From: Candidatus Woesebacteria bacterium GW2011_GWB1_39_12
GTDB taxonomy: Bacteria > Patescibacteriota > Microgenomatia > UBA8517
Assembly: GCA_000993405.1 (NCBI GenBank)
Contig: LBWB01000012.1
Location: forward strand, 101,777 to 143,536
Direction of reading: 5' to 3'
Length of the DNA: 41,760 nt
In this document: positions 9,464 through 33,240 of the stretch, in pieces
Layout: every line of letters begins with the position of its first letter
Numbering within the stretch: the first letter of the stretch is position 1
Notes under the pieces: generated by a model
Told to the model about the DNA's origin: nothing
Seen by the model: only the letters and a program-made list of their open reading frames with translations
Databases searched by the model: none
Position numbers and translations under genes: made by a program

Positions 9464-10774
9464 TCAACTCCCTGGCGTGGGAGGATTTGTATCAAAAAAA
9501 TCGCTTCCTAGATCATTATCAAAACCGTCAGGAACTCTTTCCAAGGAATGACCCTCGGCAACATCCGAAGATGAAGGGTTTAAAACAGAAACATCAGTTC
9601 CATAACTCATTTGATCTATAATGTTTCCTAGAGAATCTCTTAATACAACCCTATCGCCACCATTTGCCAAACCATTTCCAATAATTTCGCCTAATTGTAT
9701 TTTCTCAGCTGAGTCGGGGATTGTCCAAAGTACGAAAACGTTGGCAGCTTTTGCCAAAATTGCGAATTGCCCGGAAGCTAAATTTCTATTACTTGTGCTA
9801 ATTGTTCTTTGCGTTCCCGAGTTATCTTCTATCTTCCAATCCTTAAGGTTGACAGTTTGAGCAGATTTATTGTAAATCTCTACCCATTCAAACGTATTTT
9901 CGTCAGATCCTGGAGGTTGAACATGATCAGCATCAACATCATAATAGACCTCGTTAATAACAATGTCTCCAGGTTGAACAGTAGGAGTAGGGGTGGGCGA
10001 ACCCCAGGTTGATGCCTGGAAAACATTGCCTTGAGAAGTTTCCTTGTCGGAGAAAAAAGAGGAGGCGAGGCCGGCAAACACAAGTGCTGCACCGAAAATC
10101 GGAACTATGGCAGTAGCTTTATGCAATCCGCCGTTTTTAGCTTTGAGGGTCGTACCCTGTAAACTATACTTGAGGGTATGACTCTTACGATCAAATAGTC
10201 TTCTTTTTAGAATCGATAATGTTTTAAAGATTTCCTTTAACAAACCTTTTAATTCCTCATAAATAACAATGGTCGCGGGAACAATGACCAAAAGCAAAAA
10301 ACCATAAGGCTGTTTGGCGAAATTAGCTACGTAGCCTAAGTAGGGGAGAGTTAGCGCGACTTTGCCGACAATTTGGTCATTGGTTATACTTCCCGAGTCA
10401 AAATCTTCGTTTGCGTCTCCTGCGGTTAGATAGACGGGGTCGGAATTGATCCCGTCAGGATAATTTTTTACCTGTATTCTGTGGGTTATTACGTTTTTCG
10501 CGTCCTTTTTGTATGAAATAATTTCACCCTGATTATAAGTTTCCGCTTTCCTGGTTATAACTATGCTTCCGGTTTTTACTGCAGGCTCCATTGAACCTGA
10601 TTGAACAATGAAGGCTTTTGGTAATGAACCCGGTTCGGCGAATCTGGACCGTACCTGGTACGGATCAAATTGCGCTACATCCAATACAAGATACGAGGCC
10701 ATTGCAGAAAAAGCGAAAAGGACCAGCGAAAGTAGTCCGATGAAAAATTTTAGGCTGACATTTTTAAAATTCAT
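9464..10774 (-). CDS. SipW-type signal peptidase I fused to a TasA-like signal and a lamin-tail domain
   Basis: 436 residues in one frame. Residues 8-31 are a membrane helix. Residues ~53-150 are a SipW/eukaryotic-type signal peptidase with nucleophile Ser61 (VQSGSMEP), His98 (VITHRI) in place of Lys, and Asp120 (TAGDAN). A second helix spans 157-172. A basic inner loop leads to a TasA-like signal (ATAIVPIFGAALVFAGLASSFFSDKETSQGN, shown in two parts: helix 221-238, then SSFFSDKETS). A PT-rich linker follows, and residues ~268-415 form a lamin-tail (LTD) domain (DIVINEVYYDV, FEWVEIYN). Protease and probable substrate are therefore one polypeptide. PYQVRS (38-43) comes from an inserted repeat. 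AAAGGAGTG precedes the ATG. Confidence 0.83.
   Translation of the reverse strand: MNFKNVSLKFFIGLLSLVLFAFSAMASYLVLDVAQFDPYQVRSRFAEPGSLPKAFIVQSGSMEPAVKTGSIVITRKAETYNQGEIISYKKDAKNVITHRIQVKNYPDGINSDPVYLTAGDANEDFDSGSITNDQIVGKVALTLPYLGYVANFAKQPYGFLLLVIVPATIVIYEELKGLLKEIFKTLSILKRRLFDRKSHTLKYSLQGTTLKAKNGGLHKATAIVPIFGAALVFAGLASSFFSDKETSQGNVFQASTWGSPTPTPTVQPGDIVINEVYYDVDADHVQPPGSDENTFEWVEIYNKSAQTVNLKDWKIEDNSGTQRTISTSNRNLASGQFAILAKAANVFVLWTIPDSAEKIQLGEIIGNGLANGGDRVVLRDSLGNIIDQMSYGTDVSVLNPSSSDVAEGHSLERVPDGFDNDLGSDFFDTNPPTPGS
10145..10186. repeat. Inverted repeat inside the peptidase fusion gene (linker)
   Basis: GTCGTACCCT and AGGGTATGAC pair over 10 bp (one G-T) around a 14-base loop that contains TGTAAAC at its edge. 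It encodes part of the basic cytoplasmic linker (SLQGTTLK) between the peptidase and the TasA-like signal, where extra residues are harmless. Confidence 0.55.
10631..10663 (+). repeat. 33-bp dispersed element, copy 1 (inside the signal peptidase gene)
   Basis: The element is CGGTTCGGC, 9 variable-rich bases, then the 15-base palindrome CCGTACCTGGTACGG (10649-10663). It matches 32401-32433 in uvrB at 28 of 33 positions. On the coding minus strand it adds PYQVRSRFAEPG to the region between the first helix and the catalytic domain. Confidence 0.8.
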
Positions 10775-10817
10775 TTCTAAATCACTCCTTTACTAATACA
10801 TGAGTTTCGCACATATT

Positions 10818-10840
10818 GTCATTCTGAACTTGTTTCAGAA
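10818..10840. repeat. Dispersed palindrome in the spacer before the signal peptidase gene
   Basis: ATTCTGAA and TTCAGAAT flank CTTGT. The sequence resembles a short imperfect palindrome family that I recall as scattered in many bacterial genomes (not checked). It lies between the CalY1 stop and the peptidase gene start, in the untranslated spacer. Confidence 0.5.
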
Positions 10841-10857
10841 TCTAAATGATATCTGTA

Positions 10858-10872
10858 CCGTACCAGGTACGG
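10858..10872. repeat. 15-bp palindrome, intergenic copy
   Basis: CCGTACCAGGTACGG is the same palindrome that forms the core of the 33-bp element in the peptidase and uvrB genes. Here it stands between CalY1 and the peptidase fusion, without the CGGTTCGGC arm, followed by another hairpin (GCCGGGCAGCGGC). Confidence 0.7.
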
Positions 10873-10918
10873 AATTATCTTCTCCAGCCGGGCAGCGGCT
10901 AGAAAACAGTTTTGCGTC

Positions 10919-12148
10919 TTAGTTATCCGTGTCGTTGTAATGAACGTAAACGTTACCTTCAAACAGATAACTTCCTGGGTTCCATGCTGTCATCGGACCA
11001 GTTGACGGATTGCCACCATTATAATCTGCTGATAATACCAACCAGATTTTGGCACCTGTCGCAAAATTACCATCTGGTAGAGTTGGTAAATCTACACCTA
11101 AATCAGGATTGCCTGCAAAAGCAATATCTCCGCTCGCATTTGTAGTACCTTCGCCTATAAAGGCTCCAGGATTATTTCCTGGCCAACCATCAGCATAATA
11201 GATCAAGGCATAATCTGTAGTAGGGGCTAAACCTTTACCTGTTAAGGTATAGTTGAATGTTGCACTATCACCAGCCCAAGTAAGATCAGCGTAGATCTGG
11301 TCTTGATCAAGAACGGTCCATGGTCCACCCTGTACTTCGACCTCATTTTCAAGGCGTAAAGTGTTAGGCTTAGGTTCTACACTAGGACACACAAACTTTG
11401 TGTTGTTGCGTGATTGTTCCACATAGAAAGAAACATCAGCCATGTATTTATCAGTTTGGATGATATTACCAACTACTCCCGGAACATTCCATGCAACTCC
11501 AAGGTAGTAATTGTTACTTCCTACTAATGGGTCGTTAGGTAAACCGGTAAACACGTTTGGACTTACGCTATCTGCTAAAGCCCATGTGGTTGGAGTTAAA
11601 GGACCAGTCCCTTCGGTAAGTAACCGATCACACCCTTCTTGATAGATGTTATCTCCCGGTTCAGCACCCTCTTCTTCTGGATTAACTGCAGGGCTACATA
11701 TATCGGCCCAAATTTTGAATTGCATATTTTGGGCGAGTTCACCGTCAAAAAGGCTGTCGGTGTTTGCAACGTCTCCTGCTTCCAGTTCTGGCTCGTTGGT
11801 AGTTACATCATCATTATGTGTAGGAATGATGTTGACACAACCCCATGCGTTGTTATCGTAAACGTGCAAGGAAATTGTCCCTTCGCCGAAATCTCCGGGC
11901 TTAATATCCCTTAAATCAAAGAATTTTTCGGCTAAGGTTAAGTCCTTAAGTTCCCAAGTCCCAGCATTTGGATGACCATCAACTTCTTTGTTGTAGTAAC
12001 CATCATAATCGACCTTAAGATCGATTGCTCCGGCCTGTAGTACATTTCCCTTTGATGTCTCCGTGTCACTGAAGAAAGCTTGAGTTGCAAAAACGGCAAT
12101 TACCGCAATCACTCCAATAGTAAATAAACTCAATAGAGCTTTTTTCAT
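10919..12148 (-). CDS. Camelysin/TasA-like (CalY family) matrix protein with extra C-terminal domain
   Basis: 409 residues. The N-terminus is a SipW-type signal (MKKALLSLFTIGVIAVIAVF) followed by ATQAFFSDTETSKGNVLQAGAIDLKVD, the hallmark of camelysin/TasA proteins. The beta-sandwich core includes FDLRDIKPGDFGEGTISLHVYDN and LAQNMQFKIWADIC. After about residue 255 there is an additional ~150-residue beta-rich domain (LRLENEVEVQGG to YVHYNDTDN) that I cannot name. It probably forms surface fibres or a matrix after cleavage by a SipW peptidase. I choose the ATG at 12148; a GTG at 12166 lies in the ribosome-site-like AAAGGGGGTG. A long structured leader precedes it. Confidence 0.83.
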   Translation of the reverse strand: MKKALLSLFTIGVIAVIAVFATQAFFSDTETSKGNVLQAGAIDLKVDYDGYYNKEVDGHPNAGTWELKDLTLAEKFFDLRDIKPGDFGEGTISLHVYDNNAWGCVNIIPTHNDDVTTNEPELEAGDVANTDSLFDGELAQNMQFKIWADICSPAVNPEEEGAEPGDNIYQEGCDRLLTEGTGPLTPTTWALADSVSPNVFTGLPNDPLVGSNNYYLGVAWNVPGVVGNIIQTDKYMADVSFYVEQSRNNTKFVCPSVEPKPNTLRLENEVEVQGGPWTVLDQDQIYADLTWAGDSATFNYTLTGKGLAPTTDYALIYYADGWPGNNPGAFIGEGTTNASGDIAFAGNPDLGVDLPTLPDGNFATGAKIWLVLSADYNGGNPSTGPMTAWNPGSYLFEGNVYVHYNDTDN

Positions 12149-12181
12149 AATTTTAAATATATTCACCCCCTTTCTTGTTAG

Positions 12182-12378
12182 GCTCGTTTTTCAACGAACT
12201 TTCCCAATCAAGGGGCTAAACTCGTTAGTTTCTTTCTGAGTTCGGCCTCCAGTCCCTCGATGGTGAGCAAAGTCGAACCACTCGGGACTAGTGGACTTAA
12301 AAGTCCCCTAGCTTGGGTGGGCAAGAGAGTTCCGAGTCGAAACTCATTTATCTCTTTGACCCCACCCTTAAACGCTAG
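12182..12378 (-). ncRNA. Highly structured intergenic/leader RNA between CalY2 and CalY1
   Basis: Read on the minus strand, a nested domain (12378-12308) has CTAGC/GCTAG, GGGTGGG/CCCACCC, CAAAGAGA/TCTCTTG and an apical GAGT-TTCG-ACTC hairpin. It is followed by GGACTT/AAGTCC (12306-12293), by AGTCCC/GGGACT with a further arm (12289-12251), and by GTTCGTT/AACGAGC (12199-12182) just before the ribosome site of CalY1. Almost the whole 240-base gap can pair. It could be a 5' leader, a processing or stability element, or clustered dispersed palindromes. Confidence 0.5.
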
Positions 12379-12389
12379 AGAATAATATA

Positions 12390-13262
12390 CTAAATATCGT
12401 TTGGTTTAGCACCCTCACACAAGAATTGCTCGTTGTGCCTTGCCTGAACAGCAGTAAACACTACGTCACCAGTTACCAAATCGGTTTGTGATGCGTTATT
12501 TACAGGTTTACCGTCGCATGTAATACCTGAATTTGCAATTGGTCCTACAGGAGTGTTATTTCCTGCCGGTCTGGGAGCTAATCCCAAAGTACCAAAACAA
12601 AAGGCTTTACCAATAAATACGTCCTGGCCTGCGGCAATTGGTTGTCCAGTACTTGAATCTGCAAGTACCCAATCGCCACCCAACGTGTCGGCTCCTTCCC
12701 CCTGTCTTATAACTGTTTCACCTTCCTCTAATACATTGTCTCCGTCATCATTCCAGAAAACAAAATGGAGATTTTCTGCAAGTTCTCCATCAAACGAGTC
12801 TGCATTCCCCGGTGCTCCCGGATCCGTACAAGTTGGATCATCGAACAACTCCGGCTCAGTACATGTGTTGTCATCGTCTTTTGTGAGTTTTGCACTTGCA
12901 CAAACCCAAGAAGGATTATCTACGTGTAAACTAATCGTATCCTCTTCCCAATCACCAGGTTTTAAGTCTCGAAAGCTGAAAAATACATCTCCTTGCCCAA
13001 GATCTTTCAATTCCCATGTACAAGAACACGGTACACCATCAGGACTACCGCCCCATGTTGATGGTGCCTCTGGTTCTTCACCGGTGGGCAAACATGCTTG
13101 ACCATTGTAGTAACAAGTGTTATCAATTTTGAGATCGAGTGCACCAGCTACCAAAACATTTCCGGTTGATGTTTCCGTGTCGTTAAAGAATGCCTGAGTT
13201 GCGAAAACAGCAACGATTGCTACAACTCCGATTGAAAATAAACTTAATAAAATTTTCTTCAT
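12390..13262 (-). CDS. Camelysin/TasA-like (CalY family) matrix protein
   Basis: A 290-residue precursor with signal MKKILLSLFSIGVVAIVAVF, then ATQAFFNDTETSTGNVLVAGALDLKID as in CalY/TasA. The core keeps FSFRDLKPGDWEEDTISLHVDNPSWVC and LAENLHFVFWNDDGDNVLEEGE, an acidic Asp-rich stretch that may bind calcium. Cysteines are frequent (CYYNGQACLP, PCSCTWEL), unlike classic TasA. The start is ATG 13262, preceded by GGTGAAAAAG. An upstream TTG would prepend 17 non-signal residues and was not used. It lies in line with CalY1 on the minus strand. Confidence 0.85.
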   Translation of the reverse strand: MKKILLSLFSIGVVAIVAVFATQAFFNDTETSTGNVLVAGALDLKIDNTCYYNGQACLPTGEEPEAPSTWGGSPDGVPCSCTWELKDLGQGDVFFSFRDLKPGDWEEDTISLHVDNPSWVCASAKLTKDDDNTCTEPELFDDPTCTDPGAPGNADSFDGELAENLHFVFWNDDGDNVLEEGETVIRQGEGADTLGGDWVLADSSTGQPIAAGQDVFIGKAFCFGTLGLAPRPAGNNTPVGPIANSGITCDGKPVNNASQTDLVTGDVVFTAVQARHNEQFLCEGAKPNDI

Positions 13263-13334
13263 CTTTTTCACCAACGATCTAATCCAGAGGCTTTTTAAGT
13301 AAAAGCTTGGCAATTAAGGGTTTTACCCCTTATT

Positions 13335-13361
13335 ACCACGTTCATGTAAACTGAACGTGGT
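13335..13361. terminator. Strong hairpin after the 85-codon gene (possible terminator or attenuator)
   Basis: ACCACGTTCA (13335-13344) and TGAACGTGGT (13352-13361) form a perfect 10-bp stem with loop TGTAAAC. It lies 14 bases beyond the stop of the minus-strand gene at 13376 and before CalY2. There is no clear T run, so termination is uncertain. The same loop appears at 31060-31066. Confidence 0.5.
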
Positions 13362-13375
13362 GTAAAGAGTAAATC

Positions 13376-13633
13376 TTATTTTCCTTGTGTATTCAAAGTA
13401 ATAAATTCACCTGTTTCAAAATTGTAAATCGCATTTCCTTTACGGCTGTAATCGATAGGATAAACACCACCCCAATCAAATTGTCTGACAATATTTAGAA
13501 GAGCAGCTACGTGCTTTTTCAAATCTTTATTATTCGTATCTTCGTATAAGTCGGGGACAACTGAAAAATATTCATTTCTCCACCATGTACGTTTTTCTAC
13601 TGAAGTTTGATATTCTTTGCTATCCAATCTCAT
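13376..13633 (-). CDS. Hypothetical 85-residue protein
   Basis: I do not recognise it. From MRLDSKEYQT the sequence looks like a genuine compact alpha/beta protein: WWRNEYFSVVPDLYED, then a helix DLKKHVAALLNIVRQFDWGG, then YNFETGEFITLN at the end. Two Trp in a row, a balanced composition and the absence of repeats argue against chance. A longer frame upstream overlaps the VWA gene and has poor composition, so I take ATG 13633. No ribosome site is obvious. It may be the remains of a larger gene, as it sits between two surface-protein genes and has no signal peptide. Confidence 0.55.
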   Translation of the reverse strand: MRLDSKEYQTSVEKRTWWRNEYFSVVPDLYEDTNNKDLKKHVAALLNIVRQFDWGGVYPIDYSRKGNAIYNFETGEFITLNTQGK

Positions 13634-13709
13634 ATGTTTAAAAAGACTAAATTTTATGCAGTTACTGCGGCAGCATTTTTTAAGATAAACAGAATAAGCT
13701 TGGTATGGA

Positions 13710-15179
13710 TTATTCGCAAAGATCAAGTCCGGAAAGAATTGTTTGCAGTCCTGCGTAATTTGCTGCCGAGTAGTAATGTCCTGCATCATTCGCAATTTCT
13801 GTCTGAAGATATGTTGCGTCGACGTCGGAACCGACTCCGACGACGAATATTTCAGAACCTGCAAGTCGCGCGGCATCAGCTGAATTGGCTGCAGCTACTT
13901 CCGATGAGTCAGGCGCGGGTGGCGATTCGGGTCTATTAGGATTACCGTCAGTTATGACAATCATTTTGTCCGGAGAGGTTCCATCCGTCCTGTCATGAAG
14001 ATCTCCCGGATTATTAAGTTCTCCTTTTGCCAAATCAATTCCTTCTTTAAGGTTTGTCCAGCCGCCTGAAATAAGGGTATCAATTGCCGTTTTTACGGTA
14101 GTACCGTCATCATTTAGGTGCTGGTTAAGGGAACCGAATGTCGCAAAGCTTGAAAATCCGGCATGAACTCCGGTTGTTGATAAGCCGAGTGAATCAATAA
14201 AAGCTTTGGCAGCAGTCTTAAGATCCCCTAATTCTGTTAAACTTATGCTGCCCGAACGGTCTAAGACGAGCATCACATCCGCTTGTCCGCAGGCTAGGGG
14301 AGTGGGGGAAGGAGTAAGAGAAGGGCTTACTTTTGGTGTTCCTGTAGGAGGAGTAGGTGTTACTCCGGAACAGCTGAAATTGGGGTTATTTCTTGCCTGA
14401 ACGGCTGAAAAGCTGATATTTCCCATAACTTTATCTGTTTGAGTAGCGTTATCCAATAATGACCCGTCACAATTAACTCCTCCTGTTGAATTTGCGGGCG
14501 TCCTAGGACTGTCTGCGCCTAACCCGTCCTGTGCAAGAGGAATGGGTTGAAGTAAGTTTCCGTGACACCAGACTTTACCTATATAGTATGTTTTTGAAGG
14601 AGATAAAGGTCCGGGAGTTCCCCAAAAGTTTGTCAGAGAATCGGCAAGAGTAAAAAGCCTTTTAGGCGAGAATTGTTCAAAAGTCGGCCCTTTTACTAAG
14701 TTGGGGGATTCGTCGGTTTCAAGAACATTGTCTCCGTCATCAGGCCACATCATAAAAAATGTTCTTTGGGCGAGTTCTCCGTCATCAGGGTCACCATCAG
14801 GGTCATTACAACCGTTTAAGTCGTCTTGTATTTCAGGCTCCGTACAGCTTTCATCGTCATTTTCGGTAGTTTCAATCTCCATACAGGCCCAGTAATCATT
14901 TTCGGCATGAAGACTAATTGTGTCTTCACCCCAATCGCCGGGTTTAATATCTGTGAAGTTAAAGAAAAGCTCATCGGTTAGGTCATCAAGACTCCACGAA
15001 GTTCCTTCGTTTAAAACTCCGTTGTAATAACTTTCATTGTCTATTTTTAAGTCTAAAGCGCCGGCCTGAAGAATATTATCTTTTGAAGTTTCAGTGTCAG
15101 AAAAAAACGAGCTTGTTACGCCTAAGGCTAAAGCTGTGACGACTCCTAAAGTGATGATAGAAATTAAAATTTTCTTCAT
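13710..15179 (-). CDS. CalY/TasA-like protein fused to a von Willebrand factor A domain
   Basis: 489 residues. The signal MKKILISIITLGVVTALALGV is followed by TSSFFSDTETSKDNILQAGALDLKID, the CalY/TasA hallmark, and by the core motif FTDIKPGDWGEDTISLHAEND. A Pro/Thr linker (residues ~285-297) leads to a VWA domain with an intact metal-ion-dependent adhesion site: DRSGS near residue 306 and ITDGNPN near 407. The domain ends close to the C-terminus (LSGLDLCE). VWA domains mediate divalent-metal-dependent binding, so this looks like an adhesive variant of the matrix subunit. It begins the minus-strand island and is divergent from the second SipW gene. Confidence 0.87.
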   Translation of the reverse strand: MKKILISIITLGVVTALALGVTSSFFSDTETSKDNILQAGALDLKIDNESYYNGVLNEGTSWSLDDLTDELFFNFTDIKPGDWGEDTISLHAENDYWACMEIETTENDDESCTEPEIQDDLNGCNDPDGDPDDGELAQRTFFMMWPDDGDNVLETDESPNLVKGPTFEQFSPKRLFTLADSLTNFWGTPGPLSPSKTYYIGKVWCHGNLLQPIPLAQDGLGADSPRTPANSTGGVNCDGSLLDNATQTDKVMGNISFSAVQARNNPNFSCSGVTPTPPTGTPKVSPSLTPSPTPLACGQADVMLVLDRSGSISLTELGDLKTAAKAFIDSLGLSTTGVHAGFSSFATFGSLNQHLNDDGTTVKTAIDTLISGGWTNLKEGIDLAKGELNNPGDLHDRTDGTSPDKMIVITDGNPNRPESPPAPDSSEVAAANSADAARLAGSEIFVVGVGSDVDATYLQTEIANDAGHYYSAANYAGLQTILSGLDLCE

Positions 15180-15299
15180 CAGACTAAAATATGGGATACT
15201 AATCTCAGGGCAGGAGATTGATAATAACTATTTAAGATTATTATCTAAACTAACATCACATTAATAAGCTGTCAAGAGTCATTTAACGCTCAAAATCAG

Positions 15300-15330
15300 T
15301 AATTATTAATTAACTATAATTTAATAATTA
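15300..15330. repeat. AT-rich inverted repeat in the divergent intergenic region
   Basis: TAATTATTAA (15300-15309) and TTAATAATTA (15321-15330) are perfect inverted arms around an 11-base loop. The repeat lies between the divergent CalY-VWA and SipW genes and just upstream of the TTGACT -35-like hexamer at 15339, so it could be an operator. Confidence 0.4.
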
Positions 15331-15338
15331 TGACTGTA

Positions 15339-15369
15339 TTGACTGGAAAGAACTTTCACCTCATACTAT
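15339..15369 (+). promoter_or_regulatory. Likely promoter of the second SipW gene
   Basis: TTGACT at 15339-15344 stands 17 bases from CATACT (15362-15367), which overlaps TACTAT (15364-15369). The ATG at 15380 follows 10-12 bases later. This is a good housekeeping-type promoter match. Confidence 0.5.
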
Positions 15370-15379
15370 CGGCATTAAT

Positions 15380-16036
15380 ATGCGCTACACGACATCAAGC
15401 TACCTTAGTGACTCGTTCTGGCTCGTAGACTTCTTCCTTTCTTTGTGGAAAAAAGTAAAGCCGAAAATATATAAATATCTCAGTCGTGCAATCGACTTCG
15501 AATACGACCTTTATATAGAAAGAGTTTACGGAAATCTTTTCACCGGCTTTCTGATAATATACCTGGGCTTAATCGCCTGTTTTGCGCTTACCAAATATAC
15601 CGAAAGATTAAACGGGGTGAGAATTTCAACGATTACCACAAATTCAATGAGTCCTGTTATTACTCCCGGAAGCATAGTAATTTCAGCACCTCATCAAAAA
15701 TATTCGAAAAATGATCTTGTAACCTACAAAGAAGTTAACGTAAAAACAGGTTTTGTTACCGGCAAAGCAATTACTCACAGAATTATAGATGAAGTAAATT
15801 TCGAAGACGGAAGTTTTTTTGTAACCAAAGGCGACTCAAATTCCCAACCGGATCCGGGAAGGGGAACAAAGAGTGATATCTTAGGCAAAGTAGTTTTAAT
15901 TATTCCCTTTTTGGGGTATTTTGACGCGGCAATTAAGTCATTTCCCGGCTTTTTAATTTTTATAGCAATTCCGGCAATCTATCTGATAAAACACGAGCTT
16001 GTATACTTAAAGGAAGCTAACCGTAAGAGAAGTTAA
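15380..16036 (+). CDS. SipW-type signal peptidase I
   Basis: A 218-residue membrane serine protease of the SipW/eukaryotic class. There is an N-terminal cytoplasmic region of ~50 residues, a helix at ~54-72, catalytic Ser89 (TTNSMSP), His133 (AITHRI), the aspartates of KGDSNSQPDPG (~151-158), and a C-terminal helix (~188-206) followed by a basic tail. In Bacillus, SipW cuts TasA-like precursors; here three such precursors lie next to it, which supports the same role. The long N-terminal extension before the first helix is unusual. Its 3' end overlaps the convergent broken gene by 30 bases. Confidence 0.88.
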   Translation: MRYTTSSYLSDSFWLVDFFLSLWKKVKPKIYKYLSRAIDFEYDLYIERVYGNLFTGFLIIYLGLIACFALTKYTERLNGVRISTITTNSMSPVITPGSIVISAPHQKYSKNDLVTYKEVNVKTGFVTGKAITHRIIDEVNFEDGSFFVTKGDSNSQPDPGRGTKSDILGKVVLIIPFLGYFDAAIKSFPGFLIFIAIPAIYLIKHELVYLKEANRKRS

Positions 16037-16772: not shown

Positions 16773-16849
16773 ACATCAACTATACAACACTTTTTAAAAA
16801 TCTATCAACTACTAGACAGAAGTAAATATTTTTTGTTAAGATAATTAAT

Positions 16850-17053
16850 ATGAATGCGCTTGAATTTTTCTTTCTTCTTTATTTTATAGTCGCCGCCTTT
16901 ATTTATGCAATTCAAAGAAGGGGAGCCATACCTTTTACTCTACCCGGGGACATCTATATTCACATCGGCCAAAAAAAAATATATATTCCCCTGGGCAGCT
17001 CCTTAATAATAACTATAATACTTTTCCTAATACTTAACCGCTTTAGAAAGTAA
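16850..17053 (+). CDS. DUF2905 family small membrane protein
   Basis: 67 residues with two membrane helices: LEFFFLLYFIVAAFIYAI and SLIITIILFLILNRF. Between them is the family motif FTLPGDIYIHIGQKKIYIPLGSS, which matches the GDI-x-I-x-R-G-x-x-x-x-PL pattern of DUF2905 proteins. The function is unknown in all bacteria. It starts the plus-strand group with superoxide dismutase, whose ATG follows four bases after its stop, so the two are surely cotranscribed. Confidence 0.85.
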   Translation: MNALEFFFLLYFIVAAFIYAIQRRGAIPFTLPGDIYIHIGQKKIYIPLGSSLIITIILFLILNRFRK

Positions 17054-17057
17054 TAAC

Positions 17058-17672: not shown

Positions 17673-17714
17673 ATTGAGTATTTACTTTTAATAATTAATG
17701 TTTAACATAATTTA

Positions 17715-18374: not shown

Positions 18375-18377
18375 TCC

Positions 18378-25004: not shown

Positions 25005-25020
25005 TGACAAGACTTTTCCT

Positions 25021-25055
25021 AATTGAAAATTGATAATTGTTAATTGATAATTAGT
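25021..25055 (+). repeat. Degenerate heptamer array upstream of ppsA
   Basis: Five successive 7-base units with consensus AATTGWT fill the space up to four bases before the ppsA ATG. Comparable heptamer arrays occur before lexA (30980-31007) and inside uvrB and uvrA. Confidence 0.75.
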
Positions 25056-25059
25056 TGTT

Positions 25060-27342
25060 ATGGCTGCCCAATCACCATTAGTACTTTTCTTCAAAGATAT
25101 AGATAAAGACGATATTCCTTCAGTCGGCGGTAAAGGTGCAAACCTCGGAGAAATGACGCAGGCAAGTTTTCCTGTTCCTTACGGCTTTGCGGTAACAGTG
25201 GCCGCATACGACGCATTTTTGGAAAAAAACCAAATTTCCAAAAAGATCCAAGAGATATTGGCAAGTACCGATATAAATAAATCCGAAGAACTAGAAAGTG
25301 CATCCAGAAAAGTCGAAAAAATCATAACCTCAAGTCAAATTCCGGAAGAAGTATCCCGGGAAGCTATTAAGGCCTATAAACGCTTGTCTGGACTCTTAAG
25401 GAACGCCCTTGTTGCCGTCAGAAGTTCAGCAACGGCTGAGGATTTGCCAGGCGCTTCATTTGCCGGGCAACAGGCAACTTTTTTAAATGTAAAAGGTGAG
25501 GCAAACCTTCTTGTTGCTTTGAGAGAGTGCTGGGCATCTCTTTTCACCGCTCGGGCAATTTTTTATCGAGAACAAAATAATATTTCTCATTCAAAAGTAA
25601 AAATTTCCGTCATTGTCCAAAAAATGGTTCAGTCCGAGGTCTCCGGCGTAATGTTTTCAATCGATCCTGTGTCGAATGATAAAGACAGAATAATAATCGA
25701 AGCCGTCTGGGGTTTGGGGGAAATGATAGTTCAGGGATCTGTTGTTCCGGACAGATACGTCGTTCAAAAAGAAACTTTTTCTATTCTCTCGAAAGAAATT
25801 TCCGAACAGTCAATACAACTTATCAGAAAAGACTATAAAAACATAGAAGCTCAGGTCCCAGATAAATACCGAGACAAGCCTAAACTTAATGACGAAGACA
25901 TAGTAAAACTTGCCAAATTGGCGGATAAACTGCAAAAACATTATTACTTTCCACAGGACATCGAATGGGCCAAGGAAGGCAAGAATATATATATCGTCCA
26001 GACAAGGCCGGTCACCACAATCGGAAAGAGCGGGGAATCAAAGGTGACTATTGATATTACGGATGACCAAAAAATAAAAATAGCCGAAGTTCCGATTTTG
26101 ACCGGTGTTGGCGCGAGCCCGGGCATTGGAACAGGACCAGTCAAGATACTCAGAAGTCCAAAGGAGATAAATAAAGTTAAAACTTCGGACGTTCTGGTTG
26201 CTCCGATGACTTCACCCGACTACGTACCTGCCATGAAAAAAGCATCGGCAATAATAACCGATGAAGGCGGAATGACCTCTCACGCCGCGATTGTCTCAAG
26301 AGAATTGGGAATTCCCTGTGTAGTCGGCACAAAAGAGGCGACCAAAAGGTTAAAAGACGATACCGTCGTGACGGTCGACGGAGCCAGGGGACTGATTTAT
26401 CTGGGGGGAAAAGTAAAAGTTGAAAGAAAAGAAGTCGTTGAAGAGGAAATTAGAGGCAAGACCGCCACAAGGCTTTATATAAACCTTGCAGAAAAAGAGC
26501 TCGCTAATAAAATGTCTAAACTCAACGTCGAAGGAATAGGACTCTTGCGGGCGGAATTCATGATTGCAAACATTGGAATTCATCCCAAGGAAGCAATAAA
26601 AAACAAAAAACAGGGCGAATTTATCGACAAACTGGCAAATGATCTGGAAATATTTTGCAGGGCATTTTACCCAAGGCCCGTAGTCTATAGGGCCACAGAC
26701 TTCAAAACCAATGAATATAGATCCCTTCCGGGAGGAGCCAATTGGGAACCAGTCGAACCCAATCCCATGCTTGGATTTCGAGGTGCTTTTCGTTATATCG
26801 CAAGCCCTGACGTTTTTAATTTAGAACTTACCGCAATAAAAAAAGTGAGGAATAAATTCAAGAACCTGTGGTTAATGATTCCTTTTGTAAGATCTCCGGA
26901 AGAATTGACGCACGTAAGAAGACTTGTTGCCGCCGAAGGCTTGTTTGCTGAAACTACCTTCAAATTTTGGATGATGGTCGAAATTCCGACTAATGTAATT
27001 TTAATTGAAGAATTTATTAAGGTTGGCATAGACGGAGTTTCAATCGGCTCAAACGATCTTACAATGCTTCTTACCGGGACAGACAGAGATAATTCAGAAG
27101 TAGCCAGTGCTTTTAATGAAAGATCTCCCGCTGTTTTATGGTCGTTAAGAAGGGTAATTAAGCGTTGCAACAAGTACGGCGTAAGTTCATCGATATGCGG
27201 TCAGGCGCCCTCAGAATATGAGGATCTGGTCAAAAAATTAGTCAAATATGGAATTACCAGCATATCCGTAAACCCGGACAGAATCAATAAAACAAGAAAA
27301 ATTATAATGGAAGCCGAAAAAGAAGTGGTTGCCAAGGGCTAG
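25060..27342 (+). CDS. ppsA: Phosphoenolpyruvate synthase
   Basis: 760 residues, full length. The N-terminal ATP-grasp region starts with SVGGKGANLGEMTQASFPVP and includes AVRSSATAEDLPGASFAGQQATFLNV and VQKMVQSEVSGVMFSIDP. The swivelling domain has the phosphorylated His in DEGGMTSHAAIVSRELGIPCVVG. The C-terminal TIM barrel includes MLGFRGAFRYI, FVRSPEEL, GSNDLTMLLTGTDRD and the active-site Cys in SICGQAPSEY. It makes PEP from pyruvate, ATP and water, or runs with PPDK-like reversibility in small genomes. With eno and gpmI directly downstream it forms a PEP-to-phosphoglycerate operon. Confidence 0.96.
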   Translation: MAAQSPLVLFFKDIDKDDIPSVGGKGANLGEMTQASFPVPYGFAVTVAAYDAFLEKNQISKKIQEILASTDINKSEELESASRKVEKIITSSQIPEEVSREAIKAYKRLSGLLRNALVAVRSSATAEDLPGASFAGQQATFLNVKGEANLLVALRECWASLFTARAIFYREQNNISHSKVKISVIVQKMVQSEVSGVMFSIDPVSNDKDRIIIEAVWGLGEMIVQGSVVPDRYVVQKETFSILSKEISEQSIQLIRKDYKNIEAQVPDKYRDKPKLNDEDIVKLAKLADKLQKHYYFPQDIEWAKEGKNIYIVQTRPVTTIGKSGESKVTIDITDDQKIKIAEVPILTGVGASPGIGTGPVKILRSPKEINKVKTSDVLVAPMTSPDYVPAMKKASAIITDEGGMTSHAAIVSRELGIPCVVGTKEATKRLKDDTVVTVDGARGLIYLGGKVKVERKEVVEEEIRGKTATRLYINLAEKELANKMSKLNVEGIGLLRAEFMIANIGIHPKEAIKNKKQGEFIDKLANDLEIFCRAFYPRPVVYRATDFKTNEYRSLPGGANWEPVEPNPMLGFRGAFRYIASPDVFNLELTAIKKVRNKFKNLWLMIPFVRSPEELTHVRRLVAAEGLFAETTFKFWMMVEIPTNVILIEEFIKVGIDGVSIGSNDLTMLLTGTDRDNSEVASAFNERSPAVLWSLRRVIKRCNKYGVSSSICGQAPSEYEDLVKKLVKYGITSISVNPDRINKTRKIIMEAEKEVVAKG

Positions 27343-27389
27343 ATAAATAAGTAATATTAATTTATTCGTATAATTCGCATCGCTATAAA

Positions 27390-28664
27390 ATGCCAAAAAT
27401 TTCTAAAATCTGGGCAAGACAAATACTGGATTCCAGAGGAATACCAACTGTTGAAGCAGCCTGTCAACTCGACACAGGCGAGGTTGCGGTTGCTTCAGTT
27501 CCAAGCGGCACTTCAACTGGCACTCATGAGGCCATTGAGCTTAGAGATAATGATGAACAAAAATATCTTGGTAAAGGAGTCAGTAAGGCAGTAGGTAATG
27601 TCAATGACGTTTTAGGCCCGGGGGTCTGGGGACTAGACGTAACAGATCAAGAAAGGGTCGACTCAAGACTGATTGAGCTTGATGGTACTCCAAATAAATC
27701 AAAATATGGCGCAAATGCAATTCTTTCTGTTTCGATTGCAGCAACAAAAGCGGCAAGTCTTGCTACAAAGCAACCACTATATTTATGGATTAACACGCTG
27801 GCTAAAAGAGTCGGAATAAAAGGAGAGGTAAAAATTCCAACGCCGATTTTTGTGCTCATTGAAGGCGGTCTCCATGGAGCCGGTAACTTAGATTTTCAAG
27901 AATTTCATCTCATACCTGCAACTTCAAAGTCCTTTACGGATTCGCTTAGAAGCGCAGTAGAAATATTCCTGATACTAGGTAGGGACTTGGAAAGAAGAGG
28001 AGCGATTCATTCCTTCGGGGAAGAAGGTGGATATGCACCCAATTTATTTACCAACGCCGACGCTTTGGAAGTATTATATGAGGCAGTCAAACAAACTCCT
28101 TATCAAATCGGCCGCGATGTATTTTTCGGACTTGACGTCGCTGCCAGCGTTTTTTATAAAAATGGCGAATATACAATAAGAGATAAATCTGCTCCTCTAA
28201 CAGACGACGGACTTTTAGAATACTACAAATATATAAACAGTCAGTATCATCTGGCTGAACTTGAAGATCCTTTTCATGAAGACGCTTGGGAATCATGGAA
28301 AAAATTAGCAGAAAGTATGAAAGATCAATTAGTCGTAGTAGGGGATGATCTTCTTACAACCAACATGGAAAGAGTTCAAAAAGGTATAAGTGAAGGTTCA
28401 TGTAACGCAATATTAGTTAAACCAAATCAAGTCGGAACTATCTCGGAAACTTTAAAAGTTGTCAAAGTCTCACGGGACGCAAATTGGAAAGTCATAACCT
28501 CGCATAGAGGCGGTGAAACCAATGACTGGTTCATAGCTGATTTTGCCGTTGGCATAGGGTCCGAATACGCCAAATTCGGTGCACCCAATAGGGGAGAACG
28601 CGTCGTTAAGTACAATAGACTATTATCAATCGAAGCTGAACTCCTGCAGCAAAAGGCACAATGA
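27390..28664 (+). CDS. eno: Enolase
   Basis: 424 residues, normal length. It converts 2-phosphoglycerate to PEP. Visible are ARQILDSRGIPTVEA at the start, GTSTGTHEA, FGEEGGYAPN (catalytic Glu), the metal ligands in FFGLDVAAS, LEDPFHED and VVGDDL, the catalytic Lys in ILVKPNQVGTISET, and SHRGGETND. Some positions are unusual: SHRGGE instead of SHRSGE, LIEGGLHGAGN instead of NGGxHADN, and GAPNRGER instead of GAPSRSER, pointing to a divergent lineage rather than loss of function. A TATAAT lies 15 bases before the ATG. Its TGA overlaps the gpmI ATG by four bases. Confidence 0.96.
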   Translation: MPKISKIWARQILDSRGIPTVEAACQLDTGEVAVASVPSGTSTGTHEAIELRDNDEQKYLGKGVSKAVGNVNDVLGPGVWGLDVTDQERVDSRLIELDGTPNKSKYGANAILSVSIAATKAASLATKQPLYLWINTLAKRVGIKGEVKIPTPIFVLIEGGLHGAGNLDFQEFHLIPATSKSFTDSLRSAVEIFLILGRDLERRGAIHSFGEEGGYAPNLFTNADALEVLYEAVKQTPYQIGRDVFFGLDVAASVFYKNGEYTIRDKSAPLTDDGLLEYYKYINSQYHLAELEDPFHEDAWESWKKLAESMKDQLVVVGDDLLTTNMERVQKGISEGSCNAILVKPNQVGTISETLKVVKVSRDANWKVITSHRGGETNDWFIADFAVGIGSEYAKFGAPNRGERVVKYNRLLSIEAELLQQKAQ

Positions 28665-30328
28665 ACCCTTCGCAAAGATGTAAATTTGTGGTACTGGCAA
28701 TACTTGACGGTTGGGGTTTAGCACCTGACGCTCCCGGTAATGCTATAAGCAAAGCAAATACCCCAAATTTCGATAAGTTCTGGGCATCTTACCCCCACGC
28801 CGAACTCGAAGCATCGGGTGAATCTGTAGGTCTTCCGAGAGCGGAGGACGGGAATACCGAAACCGGTCATTTAAATCTGGGCGCGGGGAGAATTGTTTAT
28901 CAGGATCTGGAAAGAATCAACATGGCTATTGCCGATGGGAGCTTTTTTGAAAATAAAGTTCTTATCGCGGCAATTGAACACGCAAAAAAGTTTTCTTCAA
29001 ATCTTCACTACATGGGACTTCTTGGCGCCGGGGGCGTACATTCAAATATAGAACACCTTTTTGCTCTTATTCACCTAGCGGGAAAATATAAATTTGATAA
29101 TCTTTACCTTCATCTTTTTACAGACGGCAGAGATTCGCCGCCAACGGGCGCAAAAACGTATCTTTCCCGTTTGAGGGAGGTTCTAAAAAAAGAAGGCGTA
29201 GGAAAAATAGCCACTATAATGGGTAGATATTGGGCAATGGATCGGGATCAACGCTGGGACAGAACCGCCAGAGCCTATTTCGCTTTAACCAAAGGGGAAG
29301 GAAATTTGGTAAAGGAGCCTGAAGAGGCAGTTGAAACATCATACTCTGACGGAAAAACCGATGAATTTATTGACCCTTCAGTTATTGTAGATAAGGCCGG
29401 TAAGCCAATTAGCATAATTTCCGATAACGACTCTATCATCTTTTTCAATTTCAGAATAGACAGGCCTAGACAGCTTGCAAAAGCCTTTGTTTTTAAAGAT
29501 TTTGCTAAGGCCAACATTCTTTTTGATTACGATCCCTATCTCATAAAATATCAAAAAACACACATTTTACAAGATTCTCCCAAAGCTCAGGAAGCGTTTG
29601 CTAGAGGCGAAAAACTCAAAAATTTATTTTTTGTGACAATGACCGAGTACGGGAAACCAATAACCGACGAAGGGGCAAAACCCGCATTTCCTCCAGAAAT
29701 AATCGACATGCCGCTCTCCGGAGTGGTCGCAGCTTCCGGTTTTAGACAACTAAAAGTAACCGAAAGTGAAAAAGAAAGATTTGTAACATTTTATTTTAAC
29801 GGACTACGGGAAAAAGAATACCCTCTTGAAGAAAGAGTTATAATACCGTCCCCTAAAGTCCCAACATACGACCAAAAGCCGGAAATGAGTGCATACGAAC
29901 TAAATCAAACTCTTCTTAAAAAATTAGCAGCATCAGAATACAAGTTAGTAGTTGTTAATTATCCTAATCCTGACATGGTAGGTCATACCGGTAATATTGG
30001 GGCCACCGTTCGGGCGGTTGAAGTTGTTGACGACTGTATTGGAAAACTTGCCAACTTTGTACAGGCATATGAAGGAGCACTAATTATCACCTCAGATCAC
30101 GGCAACGCAGAGGAACTCATAAACCGGGAAACAAACGCAATTGATACCGAACATTCAACCAGTAGGGTTCCTTTCATTGTAATCTCACACCAACTTCTGG
30201 GAAAATCCTACAAACTGCGCACGGGAATACTTGCCGACGTTGCACCTACAATTCTTAATCTCTTGGAATTACCTACGCCCGCGAGCATGACAGGAAGTAA
30301 TATTCTTGCAGATGTAAAAGATTATTAG
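28661..30328 (+). CDS. gpmI: 2,3-bisphosphoglycerate-independent phosphoglycerate mutase
   Basis: 555 residues, alkaline-phosphatase superfamily, two Mn ions. ILDGWGLAPDAPGNAISKANTPNFD opens the phosphatase domain. DGNTETGHLNLGAGRIVYQD is the nucleophile loop, with Thr where most GpmI proteins have Ser (GNSEVGH). LFTDGRDSPP and GRYWAMDRDQRWDR are in the transferase domain, and NYPNPDMVGHTGN, TSDHGNAEE and DTEHSTSRVPFI carry C-terminal metal ligands. It interconverts 3- and 2-phosphoglycerate. It is translationally coupled to eno by an ATGA overlap and converges with lexA. Confidence 0.95.
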   Translation: MNPSQRCKFVVLAILDGWGLAPDAPGNAISKANTPNFDKFWASYPHAELEASGESVGLPRAEDGNTETGHLNLGAGRIVYQDLERINMAIADGSFFENKVLIAAIEHAKKFSSNLHYMGLLGAGGVHSNIEHLFALIHLAGKYKFDNLYLHLFTDGRDSPPTGAKTYLSRLREVLKKEGVGKIATIMGRYWAMDRDQRWDRTARAYFALTKGEGNLVKEPEEAVETSYSDGKTDEFIDPSVIVDKAGKPISIISDNDSIIFFNFRIDRPRQLAKAFVFKDFAKANILFDYDPYLIKYQKTHILQDSPKAQEAFARGEKLKNLFFVTMTEYGKPITDEGAKPAFPPEIIDMPLSGVVAASGFRQLKVTESEKERFVTFYFNGLREKEYPLEERVIIPSPKVPTYDQKPEMSAYELNQTLLKKLAASEYKLVVVNYPNPDMVGHTGNIGATVRAVEVVDDCIGKLANFVQAYEGALIITSDHGNAEELINRETNAIDTEHSTSRVPFIVISHQLLGKSYKLRTGILADVAPTILNLLELPTPASMTGSNILADVKDY

Positions 30329-30352
30329 TTTTTGTAGTATTTTCTTTTGAAC

Positions 30353-30976
30353 TCAGTTCTTAAGATATTTTCTTATTAAGCCCACAACTTTACCCTGGAT
30401 TTTTACGTTTTTGACGAAAATTGGGCTCATTTTGGCATTAGCCGGTTCAAGTCTGACTCTTGTAGTTTCTTTGAAAAATCTTTTGAGAGTCGCCATACCA
30501 TTATCAAGAAGGGCAACTACAATGTCCCCATTTACGGCATTTTCCGCCTGTTCAATAACTACATAGTCGCCGTCACGAATTTGTTCTTCGATCATTGATT
30601 CGCCTCTAACCTGAAGTATATAGGTGCGTTTTTTACCGGAGACAAAATTCGAAGGAATTGCAAAACTGGCGTTGGGATCTAAAAAAGGTTCAATAGGAGC
30701 CCCGGCTGCAATATAGCCCAAGATTGGGACTTCAATGCCTTCCTGTGAATAATCCACTTCAGCATTGACCAGTTCTATCGATCGGCTCTTACCCGGTCTC
30801 CTTTTAATGAGTTTTTTATTTTCCAGTGAAGTAAGATGTTCATGTACGGTAGCTAAAGAAGAAACGCCGAGTGCATTTGCAATCTGTTTTAGAGTCGGCG
30901 CAGACCCACTGGATTGAATATACTGTCTGATAAAATCTAAAATCTGGCGTTGACGTTGATAAATTACAGGTGCCAT
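30353..30976 (-). CDS. lexA: LexA repressor
   Basis: 207 residues: an N-terminal winged helix (RQILDFIRQYIQSSGSAPTLKQIANALG) and a C-terminal S24 self-cleaving domain. The cleavage bond is Ala91-Gly92 (YIAAGAP). The catalytic pair is Ser127 (VRGESMIEEQIRDGD) and Lys165 (ATLKRFF). It should repress SOS genes and be inactivated with RecA on damaged DNA. It is divergent from uvrB. Three bases before its ATG sits a four-unit heptamer array, and TTTGTACAAA at 31021-31030 is a candidate operator. No ribosome site is visible. Confidence 0.96.
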   Translation of the reverse strand: MAPVIYQRQRQILDFIRQYIQSSGSAPTLKQIANALGVSSLATVHEHLTSLENKKLIKRRPGKSRSIELVNAEVDYSQEGIEVPILGYIAAGAPIEPFLDPNASFAIPSNFVSGKKRTYILQVRGESMIEEQIRDGDYVVIEQAENAVNGDIVVALLDNGMATLKRFFKETTRVRLEPANAKMSPIFVKNVKIQGKVVGLIRKYLKN

Positions 30977-30979
30977 AAA

Positions 30980-31007
30980 TTAGTTATTAGTAATTAGTCA
31001 TTAGTTA
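30980..31007 (-). repeat. Heptamer array before lexA
   Basis: Four consecutive 7-base units of consensus TTAGTNA (plus-strand reading), perfectly phased, end three bases before the lexA ATG. They fill the place where a ribosome site or short leader would be. Confidence 0.75.
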
Positions 31008-31020
31008 TCTTTGCCTTTTA

Positions 31021-31030
31021 TTTGTACAAA
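31021..31030. promoter_or_regulatory. Candidate LexA operator between lexA and uvrB
   Basis: TTTGTACAAA is a perfect 10-base palindrome, 45 bases before lexA and 105 before uvrB. Its core shares GTACAA/TTGTAC with the longer palindrome upstream of uvrA at 33809-33828. Confidence 0.4.
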
Positions 31031-31049
31031 CTTTACCCGAAGATGTCAA

Positions 31050-31076
31050 GGGGCAATTATGTAAACTAATTGCCCC
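31050..31076. other. Hairpin with TGTAAAC loop in the lexA-uvrB spacer
   Basis: GGGGCAATTA (31050-31059) and TAATTGCCCC (31067-31076) form a perfect 10-bp stem around TGTAAAC. The same seven-base loop is found in the stem at 13335-13361, with unrelated arms. It is followed by a palindrome of the GAGCTTGTCGAAGGGTC type (31082-31102). Confidence 0.55.
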
Positions 31077-31134
31077 GCAGACTCTGAGCTTGTCGAAGGG
31101 TCAAGAGAGTAAATATAATGTAAAATAGTAAACC

Positions 31135-33240
31135 ATGAATACATTTAAACTAAAATCCGACTATAAACCCATCCCAGATCAGGAAAAGGCCATAAATGCT
31201 CTTTGTGGGGGTGTTCAAAACGGAATTGATTACCAAGTTCTATTAGGTGTAACTGGTTCCGGCAAGACCTTCACGGTCGCAAACGTCATTGAGCGCCTTC
31301 AAAGACCCGCGCTTATAATTTCACACAATAAAACTTTGGCGGCACAACTTTATCAGGAATTTAGGGATTTTTTTCCAGAAAACGCTGTTTCTTTTTTTGT
31401 TTCTTATTACGATTATTACCAGCCTGAAGCGTATATTCCATCCACGGATACATATATAGAAAAAGACTCCGACATAAATGAACTTATTGATAAATTACGC
31501 CTTGCAGCAACAACAAATCTTCTGACCCGTCGAGACACAATTGTCGTTGCCTCGGTTTCGTGCATATACAACATCGGTTCTCCCCGGGAATATGGACATT
31601 TTGTCTTTGAAATTTCAAAGGGTGTAAAAATCGGGAGAAAACAAATCATAGACAGGCTTGTTGATCTTCAGTACGAAAGGGGAGATTTCGGATTTCATAG
31701 AGGAACATTTAGAGTGATGGGAAACACTATCGACATCTACCCAGCCTATCAGGACGAGGGAGTAAGACTAGAACTTGGAGAGGATAATATTAAAGACTTA
31801 ACAATTATAAATCCAGTTTCCGGCTCACAGATCACTGATCACAAATCACCTGTCACTAATTTTGTTCTCTATCCGGCAAAACATTACGTAACCGACCCAA
31901 GTAAAAATAAAAATGTCTTTGAGGAAATTAAACGCGACTTAGCCGAAAGAATAACTTTTTTTAAGAAAAACGGGAAAGAGTTGGAAGCTTATAGACTCCA
32001 AAATAGAGTCAAATACGATCTCGAAATGATTTCCGAACTTGGCTATGTCAAAGGAATAGAGAATTATTCACGCTATTTCGACGGCAGAGCCCCGGGAGAT
32101 CCACCTTATACGCTTCTTGATTATTATCAGGAACCATACAATAACGACTGGCTTACCTTTATTGATGAAAGCCATATTACTTTTCCCCAGATAAGAGGCA
32201 TGTATAACGGCGACGTTGCCAGAAAGAACCTTCTTATCGATTACGGCTTCAGGCTCCCGGCTGCGTATGACAACCGACCTTTGAAGTTTGAAGAGTTCAT
32301 GCGAAGAATTCCGGGTTTTATTGCAACCAGCGCAACTCCTTCGGAGTGGGAAGTGGGAATGGCAAGAGAAAGTGCATCAATATTGAGATCTAAGGTAACA
32401 CGGTTCGGCAAACCTGTCCCGTACCAGGTACGGTCTACATTAGACGAACCTGGCGTAGTTCAACAGCTCTTAAGACCAACAGGGATACCCGATCCGAAAG
32501 TAGAAATTCGTTCAGCCAGAAACCAGGTTAGTGATGTAATAGACGAAATTAAAAAAGTTGCTAAGAGAGGCCAAAGAACGCTTGTTACAACCCTGACCAA
32601 AAGAACCGCCGAGGATTTGAGTCAATATTTAATCGAGCAGGGTATGAAAGTACACTATCTTCATTCTGACGTGGCAACACTCGAGAGAAGCGATATATTG
32701 GACGATCTAAGGCGCGGTAAATACGATTGCATTATCGGAGTTAATTTACTTCGTGAAGGACTTGATCTTCCGGAGGTTTCGCTTGTCGCAATTTTGGACG
32801 CAGATAAAGAAGGATTTCTTCGAAGCGAAGTCAGTCTAATTCAAACAATGGGGCGCGCAGCAAGGCACGTCGAAGGAAGAGTAATTCTATATGCCGATAA
32901 TGTAACCGGATCAATGGAAAGAGCAATTGCGGAAGTTGAGAGGCGGAGAAAATATCAGATTAAGGTTAACAAAAAATACGGCATTAAACCTACTTCAATC
33001 ACCAAACCTATAAGGGAAAGACTGGTTGAGGAAGAGGAAGAGTCCGTTCTTGATAAACTTTTCGAAAAGACTGAAAAAACTTATTTGAAGCTTCCTGATA
33101 TTGAACTAGATTCTTTAACTCCCATGGACAAAAGAAAACTAACTGTAAAGCTTCGTCGGGAAATGAAGTTAGCTGCTCAAGACCTGAACTTCGAACTCGC
33201 AGCAGAAATAAGAGATAAGATTAAAGAACTTGAATTTTAA
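31135..33240 (+). CDS. uvrB: Excinuclease ABC subunit UvrB
   Basis: 701 residues, slightly above the usual ~665. Walker A is in LGVTGSGKTFTVANV, the damage-probing beta-hairpin in YYDYYQPEAYIPSTDTYIEKD, Walker B in FIDESHITFPQI. Motifs V-VI are in GVNLLREGLDLPEVSLVAILDADKEGFLRS and QTMGRAARH. The UvrC-binding UVR motif is at the C-terminus (AAQDLNFELAAEIRDKIKEL). The extra length is largely two in-frame insertions: a heptamer array (31826-31860) before FVLYPAKHYVT, and the 33-bp palindromic element (32401-32433) in the segment between SATP and LLRPTG. UvrB verifies lesions in nucleotide excision repair. Confidence 0.97.
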   Translation: MNTFKLKSDYKPIPDQEKAINALCGGVQNGIDYQVLLGVTGSGKTFTVANVIERLQRPALIISHNKTLAAQLYQEFRDFFPENAVSFFVSYYDYYQPEAYIPSTDTYIEKDSDINELIDKLRLAATTNLLTRRDTIVVASVSCIYNIGSPREYGHFVFEISKGVKIGRKQIIDRLVDLQYERGDFGFHRGTFRVMGNTIDIYPAYQDEGVRLELGEDNIKDLTIINPVSGSQITDHKSPVTNFVLYPAKHYVTDPSKNKNVFEEIKRDLAERITFFKKNGKELEAYRLQNRVKYDLEMISELGYVKGIENYSRYFDGRAPGDPPYTLLDYYQEPYNNDWLTFIDESHITFPQIRGMYNGDVARKNLLIDYGFRLPAAYDNRPLKFEEFMRRIPGFIATSATPSEWEVGMARESASILRSKVTRFGKPVPYQVRSTLDEPGVVQQLLRPTGIPDPKVEIRSARNQVSDVIDEIKKVAKRGQRTLVTTLTKRTAEDLSQYLIEQGMKVHYLHSDVATLERSDILDDLRRGKYDCIIGVNLLREGLDLPEVSLVAILDADKEGFLRSEVSLIQTMGRAARHVEGRVILYADNVTGSMERAIAEVERRRKYQIKVNKKYGIKPTSITKPIRERLVEEEEESVLDKLFEKTEKTYLKLPDIELDSLTPMDKRKLTVKLRREMKLAAQDLNFELAAEIRDKIKELEF
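31826..31860 (+). repeat. Heptamer array inside uvrB
   Basis: Five 7-base units of the form CACNNAT or close (CACAGAT, CACTGAT and so on) lie in the coding sequence and read as QITDHKSPVTN. They interrupt the conserved run from NPVSG to FVLYPAKHY. The units share CACAGAT with the array inside uvrA. Confidence 0.75.
32401..32433 (+). repeat. 33-bp dispersed element, copy 2 (inside uvrB)
   Basis: CGGTTCGGC, nine bases, then CCGTACCAGGTACGG. It matches 10631-10663 at 28 of 33 positions and encodes RFGKPVPYQVRS, sharing PYQVRS with the unrelated signal peptidase. It sits in a stretch that is ~25 residues longer than in Escherichia coli UvrB. Confidence 0.8.

Follow-up and report, generated by a model that had tools for sequence, protein, structure and literature searches.

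How does one and the same palindromic DNA segment come to lie, in frame, in two unrelated genes of a bacterium? The question is raised by a stretch of 41,760 nucleotides from Candidatus Woesebacteria bacterium GW2011_GWB1_39_12 (contig LBWB01000012.1, positions 101,777 to 143,536 of the forward strand; "the window" below means this whole stretch), in which a first-pass annotation had noticed that 33 bases of a signal peptidase gene recur in uvrB and had proposed a mobile element analogous to the Rickettsia palindromic elements (RPEs). The segment belongs to a dispersed palindromic unit, here called family I, which is confirmed as real and occupies five places in the genome. We read family I, with a probability of about 0.55, as a low-copy palindromic repeat resembling RPEs and repetitive extragenic palindromic (REP) sequences, most likely moved in trans and tolerated in protein linkers, and we favour this reading over that of a recognition site for a DNA-binding protein.

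The family I unit

The core of family I, CCGTACCWGGTACGG, is an odd palindrome of 15 bp (CCGTACC-W-GGTACGG) that occurs exactly at positions 10649-10663, 10858-10872 and 32419-32433. A search of the window allowing up to three mismatches returned these 3 matches, whereas 100 shuffles averaged 0.17 and always stayed below 3. The match between 10631-10663 and 32401-32433 was reproduced with 28 of 33 bases identical, as was the third core at 10858; a simple base-composition model predicts about 0.006 pairs as good in the window. The genome search that had been proposed for further copies (1,514,276 bp in 56 contigs) yielded the core at five places, four of them exact and one with a single mismatch, and none with two mismatches. 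The reversed control pattern had no match in the whole genome at up to one mismatch, and the six further core matches with three mismatches represent chance level (11 forward matches in total versus 14 for the control).

The fuller unit consists of the core, nine variable bases and a third half-site, the arm GNCGAACC. Five arms without mismatch, found independently of the core search, lie at the fixed nine-base distance from the core in all copies except the intergenic one. The copy in the signal peptidase gene (10629-10663, minus strand) comprises the core at 10649-10663, the spacer at 10640-10648 and the arm at 10632-10639. For the copy at 10858-10872 (plus strand), between the peptidase gene and the next upstream gene (10919-12166), the reported recurrence holds for the core, which is exact, and not for the arm, since its third half-site is degenerate with 3 mismatches. 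The uvrB copy (32402-32450, plus strand) carries the arm on both sides of the core and thus forms a symmetric unit of arm (32402-32409), spacer (32410-32418), core (32419-32433), spacer (32434-32442) and arm (32443-32450). The 28-of-33 alignment is real and uses the left arm of uvrB; the right arm gives a sense-orientation match to the peptidase copy of 30 of 35 bases, with the peptides PYQVRSTLDEPG and PYQVRSRFAEPG agreeing, by reading, at 9 of 12 residues. The unit measures about 35 bp, or 49 bp in uvrB, and similarity between copies beyond about 49 bp was not found. Spacers share a mean identity of 36%, two of the ten pairs being closer (7/9 and 6/9). This leftover similarity suggests that the copies may share common descent, with constraint acting on core and arm only.

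A 40-column sequence model, searched with stricter filters against this genome and 46 others, gave six reads at the five places with E < 1e-7. All other matches in this genome were weak opposite-strand reads of the same five places, and six of the 46 other genomes gave one match each, always with an E value of at least 0.06. With one mismatch allowed, none of 49 other genomes of the family contains the core and none of 372 other genomes taken from the class contains core plus arm, and the full unit had no match in a viral contig collection. A looser pattern with variable spacing found four matches in a wider genome collection, two of them in a DRTWYG..MVEP-type coding context; these were set aside as chance.

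Host genes of family I

Three of the five copies lie in open reading frames (ORFs) of at least 100 aa, in unrelated protein genes and in frame, and two are non-coding. The first is read as PYQVRSRFAEPG in the gene of a signal peptidase I that carries a fused lamin-tail domain (9464-10774, minus strand). The second precedes this gene in intergenic sequence, and its upstream neighbour is TasA-like by reading, without a family match. The third is read as PYQVRSTLDEPG in uvrB (31135-33240, plus strand). The fourth, on contig C13, is used in another frame, read RTWYG, in the gene of a 588-aa membrane protein beside a GT2-type glycosyltransferase gene; the protein itself appears glycosyltransferase-like by reading and matches no family model. 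The fifth, on contig C8, lies immediately past the stop codon of prfB, with a convergent 87-aa ORF beyond it.

In the peptidase gene and uvrB, which both encode PYQVR, the core is identical at every third codon position. Because of this identity, the use of another frame in one copy and the non-coding position of two others, we conclude that the DNA is conserved and not the peptide; selection on PYQVR at the peptide level was rejected on the first two of these grounds. The claim that both orientations translate to PYQVRS stands for one frame only; the C13 copy gives RTWYG, and the final S is contributed by the spacer.

The UvrB residues encoded with the unit form a long loop. Residues 407-439 (32353-32451, plus strand) comprise 33 residues versus 5 in the best solved homologue, 9gy7, and in the alignment that the first-pass annotation had called for, the segment is absent from all 29 other UvrBs read. 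Measured from SATP to RPTG, this stretch has 44 residues here; the 29 relatives have a median of 22 and a maximum of 50. The C13 protein is the longest of 30 at the family I place, and its two closest relatives lack 10 and 11 residues there. Downstream of prfB, the sequence differs from all seven relatives inspected, with the family I copy at the stop codon, at the point of change, so that no empty site can be read there.

Several observations concern the surroundings of these copies. Beside the peptidase and TasA-like genes, an ORF at 8208-9467 carries RTX-like GGxGND repeats (by reading). A different palindrome, ATTCTGAACTTGTTTCAGAAT, lies at 10821-10841, 16 bp before the intergenic core, and the peptide SHSELVSESSESKDEKILNQVQDD in a PMT-like ORF on C13 resembles what a repeat related to ATTCTGAACTTGTTTCAGAAT would encode. 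The window holds no tRNA.

Other palindromes in this and related genomes

In 498,443 bp of contigs from this genome, seven palindromic 13-mers, one of them A/T-rich, occur in at least three places; one mononucleotide shuffle gave none. Family II, CACCTTAGAGGTG, has 7 exact copies in this sequence, two of which face inward on both sides, about 30 and 40 bp away, of a Y1 transposase gene on C8 (L232:1279-1956, equal to C8:9625-10302, minus strand) that resembles REP-associated tyrosine transposases (RAYTs), giving a REPtron-like locus. All seven copies are followed after 9-10 variable bases by a third half-site, ACACCT, in the layout of family I, and a gene for a PMT-like protein contains one copy in frame. 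The C8 gene scores above the cut-off of the Y1_Tnp model; a second Y1 gene, on C3, is of the IS200 type. In a 275-kb search for a palindrome plus third half-site, 138 hits were obtained with one mismatch allowed, versus 65-73 in five shuffles, and 29 versus 3-5 when halves had at least three G/C; family I (4 hits) and family II (3 hits) are among the repeated ones.

Family III, AGGGTACGACCCT, also has 7 exact copies. One lies in the same peptidase gene as family I (10146-10158, minus strand), in frame as LQGTTLK, with a further plus-strand half-site from 10173. All 7 are located within ORFs of at least 100 aa, which is no enrichment because ORFs cover most of such a genome and one copy probably precedes the true start codon. 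Four ORFs of this genome read the palindrome as GTTL, and other frames are used elsewhere. A RarA-like gene with this palindrome encodes 18 extra residues beside it in comparison with 3pvs. Family III also occurs near the same position of a glycosyltransferase gene in this genome and in genome G016, the two genes being seemingly orthologous by reading. Equal-sized samples contain 1-6 repeated palindromic 13-mers in this genome and 2 each in G008 and G048, so this genome is not clearly unusual in its richness. Two side observations were made: CCGAGTCAGACTCGG-type palindromes stand directly after apparent tRNA 3' ends at C1:44815 and C1:71198, with further copies in genes, and ATTTGAAGACAAAT occurs five times in 3.3 kb at C9:58147-61417, a local repeat of another kind.

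The most interesting part of the comparison is the UvrB loop itself. The four longest of 30 loops (from this genome, G001, G047 and G016) hold perfect palindromes of unrelated sequence. The stems in G047 and G016 reach 11 bp, compared to a maximum of 9 bp in 1637 uvrB windows outside the loop; G001 has stems of 6 bp, twice, a length reached by 16.7% of these windows. The palindrome of the G016 loop, CAAGGACWGTCCTTG, is present in 13 exact copies in 371 kb. The uvrB pair (L246:2562-2612, 36 bp apart) accounts for two of them, and among the other 11 it twice forms pairs 37 bp apart. The G047 palindrome recurs with one mismatch at a distance of 980 bp. Neither of the two G001 palindromes has another exact copy within 134 kb, and one of them has a copy with one mismatch. 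In the stretches of G001 and G047 searched, no palindrome occurs in three or more places. That some relatives carry different palindromes in the same loop suggests that tolerant stretches of proteins are entered or rewritten by small repeats time and again.

Among eight peptidase linkers read, those of this genome and G001 have 7-bp stems and that of G015 a 9-bp stem; in the G023 relative of the C13 protein, a 13-bp stem lies in the corresponding loop, whose length is ordinary. These are given as stems, whether or not they recur in their genomes. In G008, a complete genome, 160 kb contain AGGGTCCGACCCT six times (once with a mismatch), each time in an ORF, in three frames and once within the first residues; 102 kb of G048 contain none. 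Of 18 palindrome copies inspected in G016, 10 fall within ORFs of 120 aa or more.

Competing readings and known counterparts

The mechanism that we consider most likely is past or present movement of family I units in trans, effected by a transposase of the Y1/RAYT type, and family II, which flanks the RAYT-like gene of the same genome, would move in the same way. A unit landing in a gene would survive only if the frame is kept and the extra or altered residues are tolerated; the UvrB loop, the peptidase linker and the loop of the C13 membrane protein may represent such tolerant places. Mobility, the enzyme involved and harmlessness for the host proteins are what we infer. The mobile element proposed in the first-pass annotation is partly supported, among other findings by the further copies and by a RAYT-like gene in this genome that has a palindrome family of its own; this support stops short of movement of family I itself.

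A number of observations weigh against this mobile repeat. No transposase gene flanked by family I was found in the sequence of this genome examined; the sole RAYT-like gene found adjoins family II, and its RAYT model score is 54.7 versus a curated cut-off of 80. The two closest relatives lack residues at the family I place of the C13 protein, but one of its 29 relatives, L093, is just one residue shorter without a comparable palindrome. In the peptidase the copy adds no length, the linker being 2 residues shorter than that of the closest relative. The UvrB loop is variable: that of G001 is nearly as long as the one described here (43 versus 44 residues) and holds other palindromes. By length alone, the 7-bp stem of this uvrB loop is not exceptional, since 7 bp is attained in 5.6% of the 1637 windows and also in the loop of G048, which has 33 residues. 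The 40-column model found no decayed family I copies in this genome, and free variation is seen in the spacers but not in core and arm, a pattern that would fit a site under selection.

Two further sets of results on other families point in the same direction. Repeated palindromes in the ThrRS and GalE genes of G016 (L259:9456 and L257:10018) cause no length change, their encoded residues aligning gap-free to the solved enzymes; the ThrRS alignment shows a gap of one residue, six residues upstream. The centre of AGGGT-NNN-ACCCT is nearly fixed within each genome, being ACG/CGT in 7/7 copies here, GCG/CGC in 5/5 in G016 and CCG/CGG in 6/7 in G008, and that of CAAGGA-NNN-TCCTTG is GTA/TAC in 3/3 here and CAG/CTG in 13/13 in G016; the counts cover the stretches examined. 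The genome-specific centres, the gap-free ThrRS and GalE copies and the shared family III site are at least as consistent with homogenisation or a recognition code as with hopping.

We consider, as a tentative alternative, that core and third half-site are bound by a putative lineage-specific DNA-binding protein serving chromosome organisation, an uptake-sequence-like function or another role, with selection keeping or rebuilding sites where coding allows. Strict conservation of core and arm beside a nearly free 9-bp spacer, the lack of decayed copies, the unchanged length at the peptidase, ThrRS and GalE sites and the single centre triplet per genome all argue for it. Yet family I is absent from the other genomes searched, is limited to five places and shows no confinement to ori or ter; the extra residues of the C13 protein, and the longest UvrB loops being those with repeated palindromes, point to added DNA; and several unrelated families per genome would require several binding proteins. 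A ter- or ori-linked site such as matS, Ter or parS was rejected: the G008 orthologue of uvrB lies at the skew maximum (ter), but those of prfB and the C13 gene lie mid-replichore, and on G048:C1 the host genes are spread over about 330 kb, most of the contig. The GC skew is that of sampled stretches, and orientation relative to it is mixed, by reading. The neighbouring genes lexA, uvrA, uvrB and uvrC had also suggested a LexA-type box, which was rejected by reading; the odd spacing and the in-gene position count against it.

A broader form of this alternative, that the palindromes are genome-specific dialects of a DNA recognition code, written in place without length change, homogenised per genome to nearly always one centre triplet and swapped for unrelated ones at the UvrB loop between genera, appears doubtful. 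Improbable is a regulatory or RNA element, in which the hairpins would act in mRNA or the copies that flank the peptidase start codon at 10774 would serve as paired operators; these copies, at 10649 and 10858, are separated by 209 bp from centre to centre. In folding, the intergenic stretch 10815-10880, with a second palindrome in it, does surpass 200 of 200 shuffles; however, two of the family I copies sit well within genes and another lies between convergent genes, three lone 40-nt copies fold just moderately better than shuffles (z -0.8 to -1.7), and positions 10000-11500 match no Rfam family. Chance likeness of two coding stretches with a common peptide, to which the four chance-like matches of the looser pattern might be added, can be dismissed given the further copies in the genome, the perfect arms at a fixed distance and the empty control at up to one mismatch.

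Most known palindromic repeats that code for protein come from Rickettsia and REP-rich bacteria. The genome described here combines several families, of which two have the three-half-site layout, with a RAYT-like gene, and the unrelated palindromes in one UvrB loop across genera provide a natural series on how short repeats enter essential proteins, which also raises the question whether some palindromes arise by writing in place and not by insertion. We found no paper on a palindromic element, RAYT or REP in the candidate phyla radiation or Patescibacteria in the open-access literature, whose coverage limits any claim of novelty.

DNA uptake sequences, matS and parS are short sites kept in coding sequence in genome-specific variants, a likeness to the palindromes described here. 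Unlike uptake sequences, family I has a far lower copy number, and unlike matS and parS it is not confined to ori or ter and shares its genome with several other palindrome families. PARCELs, as PMC2996958 describes them, are palindromic coding repeats thought to spread horizontally; they resemble family I as palindromic DNA in coding sequence and differ as tandem amphipathic domains of mostly membrane proteins, family I being single dispersed units. RPEs are, according to PMC10969869, palindromic repeats of about 150 bp with a conserved peptide. Like family I, they lie in frame in unrelated genes, essential ones included. Family I differs in length (about 35-49 bp), in lying outside Rickettsia and, because more than one reading frame is used, in having no conserved peptide.

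Further counterparts are the REP/RAYT REPtrons. In PMC3733652, REPs are, like family I, small dispersed palindromes found between and within genes and near gene 3' ends, and a RAYT gene flanked by a palindrome family corresponds to the family II locus here. Unlike REPs of the GTAG/CGTC superfamilies, family I has no common GTAG or CGTC tetranucleotide at an end of the six-read alignment, has few copies (five places in 1.51 Mb), has no RAYT gene of its own in the sequence examined and follows its palindrome with nine variable bases and a third half-site. Because it lacks the GTAG/CGTC tag, the RPE length and a transposase flanked by its own copies, we file family I as a REP/RPE-like variant and not as a member. 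Repair genes recur as targets, UvrB and RarA here and UvrA, UvrB and RecB in print. The same source places REPs in uvrA of O. terrae and uvrB of R. conorii, the latter interrupted by two single REPs according to the legend of its Figure 7, so that the Rickettsia analogy proves apt at the very gene from which this analysis set out.

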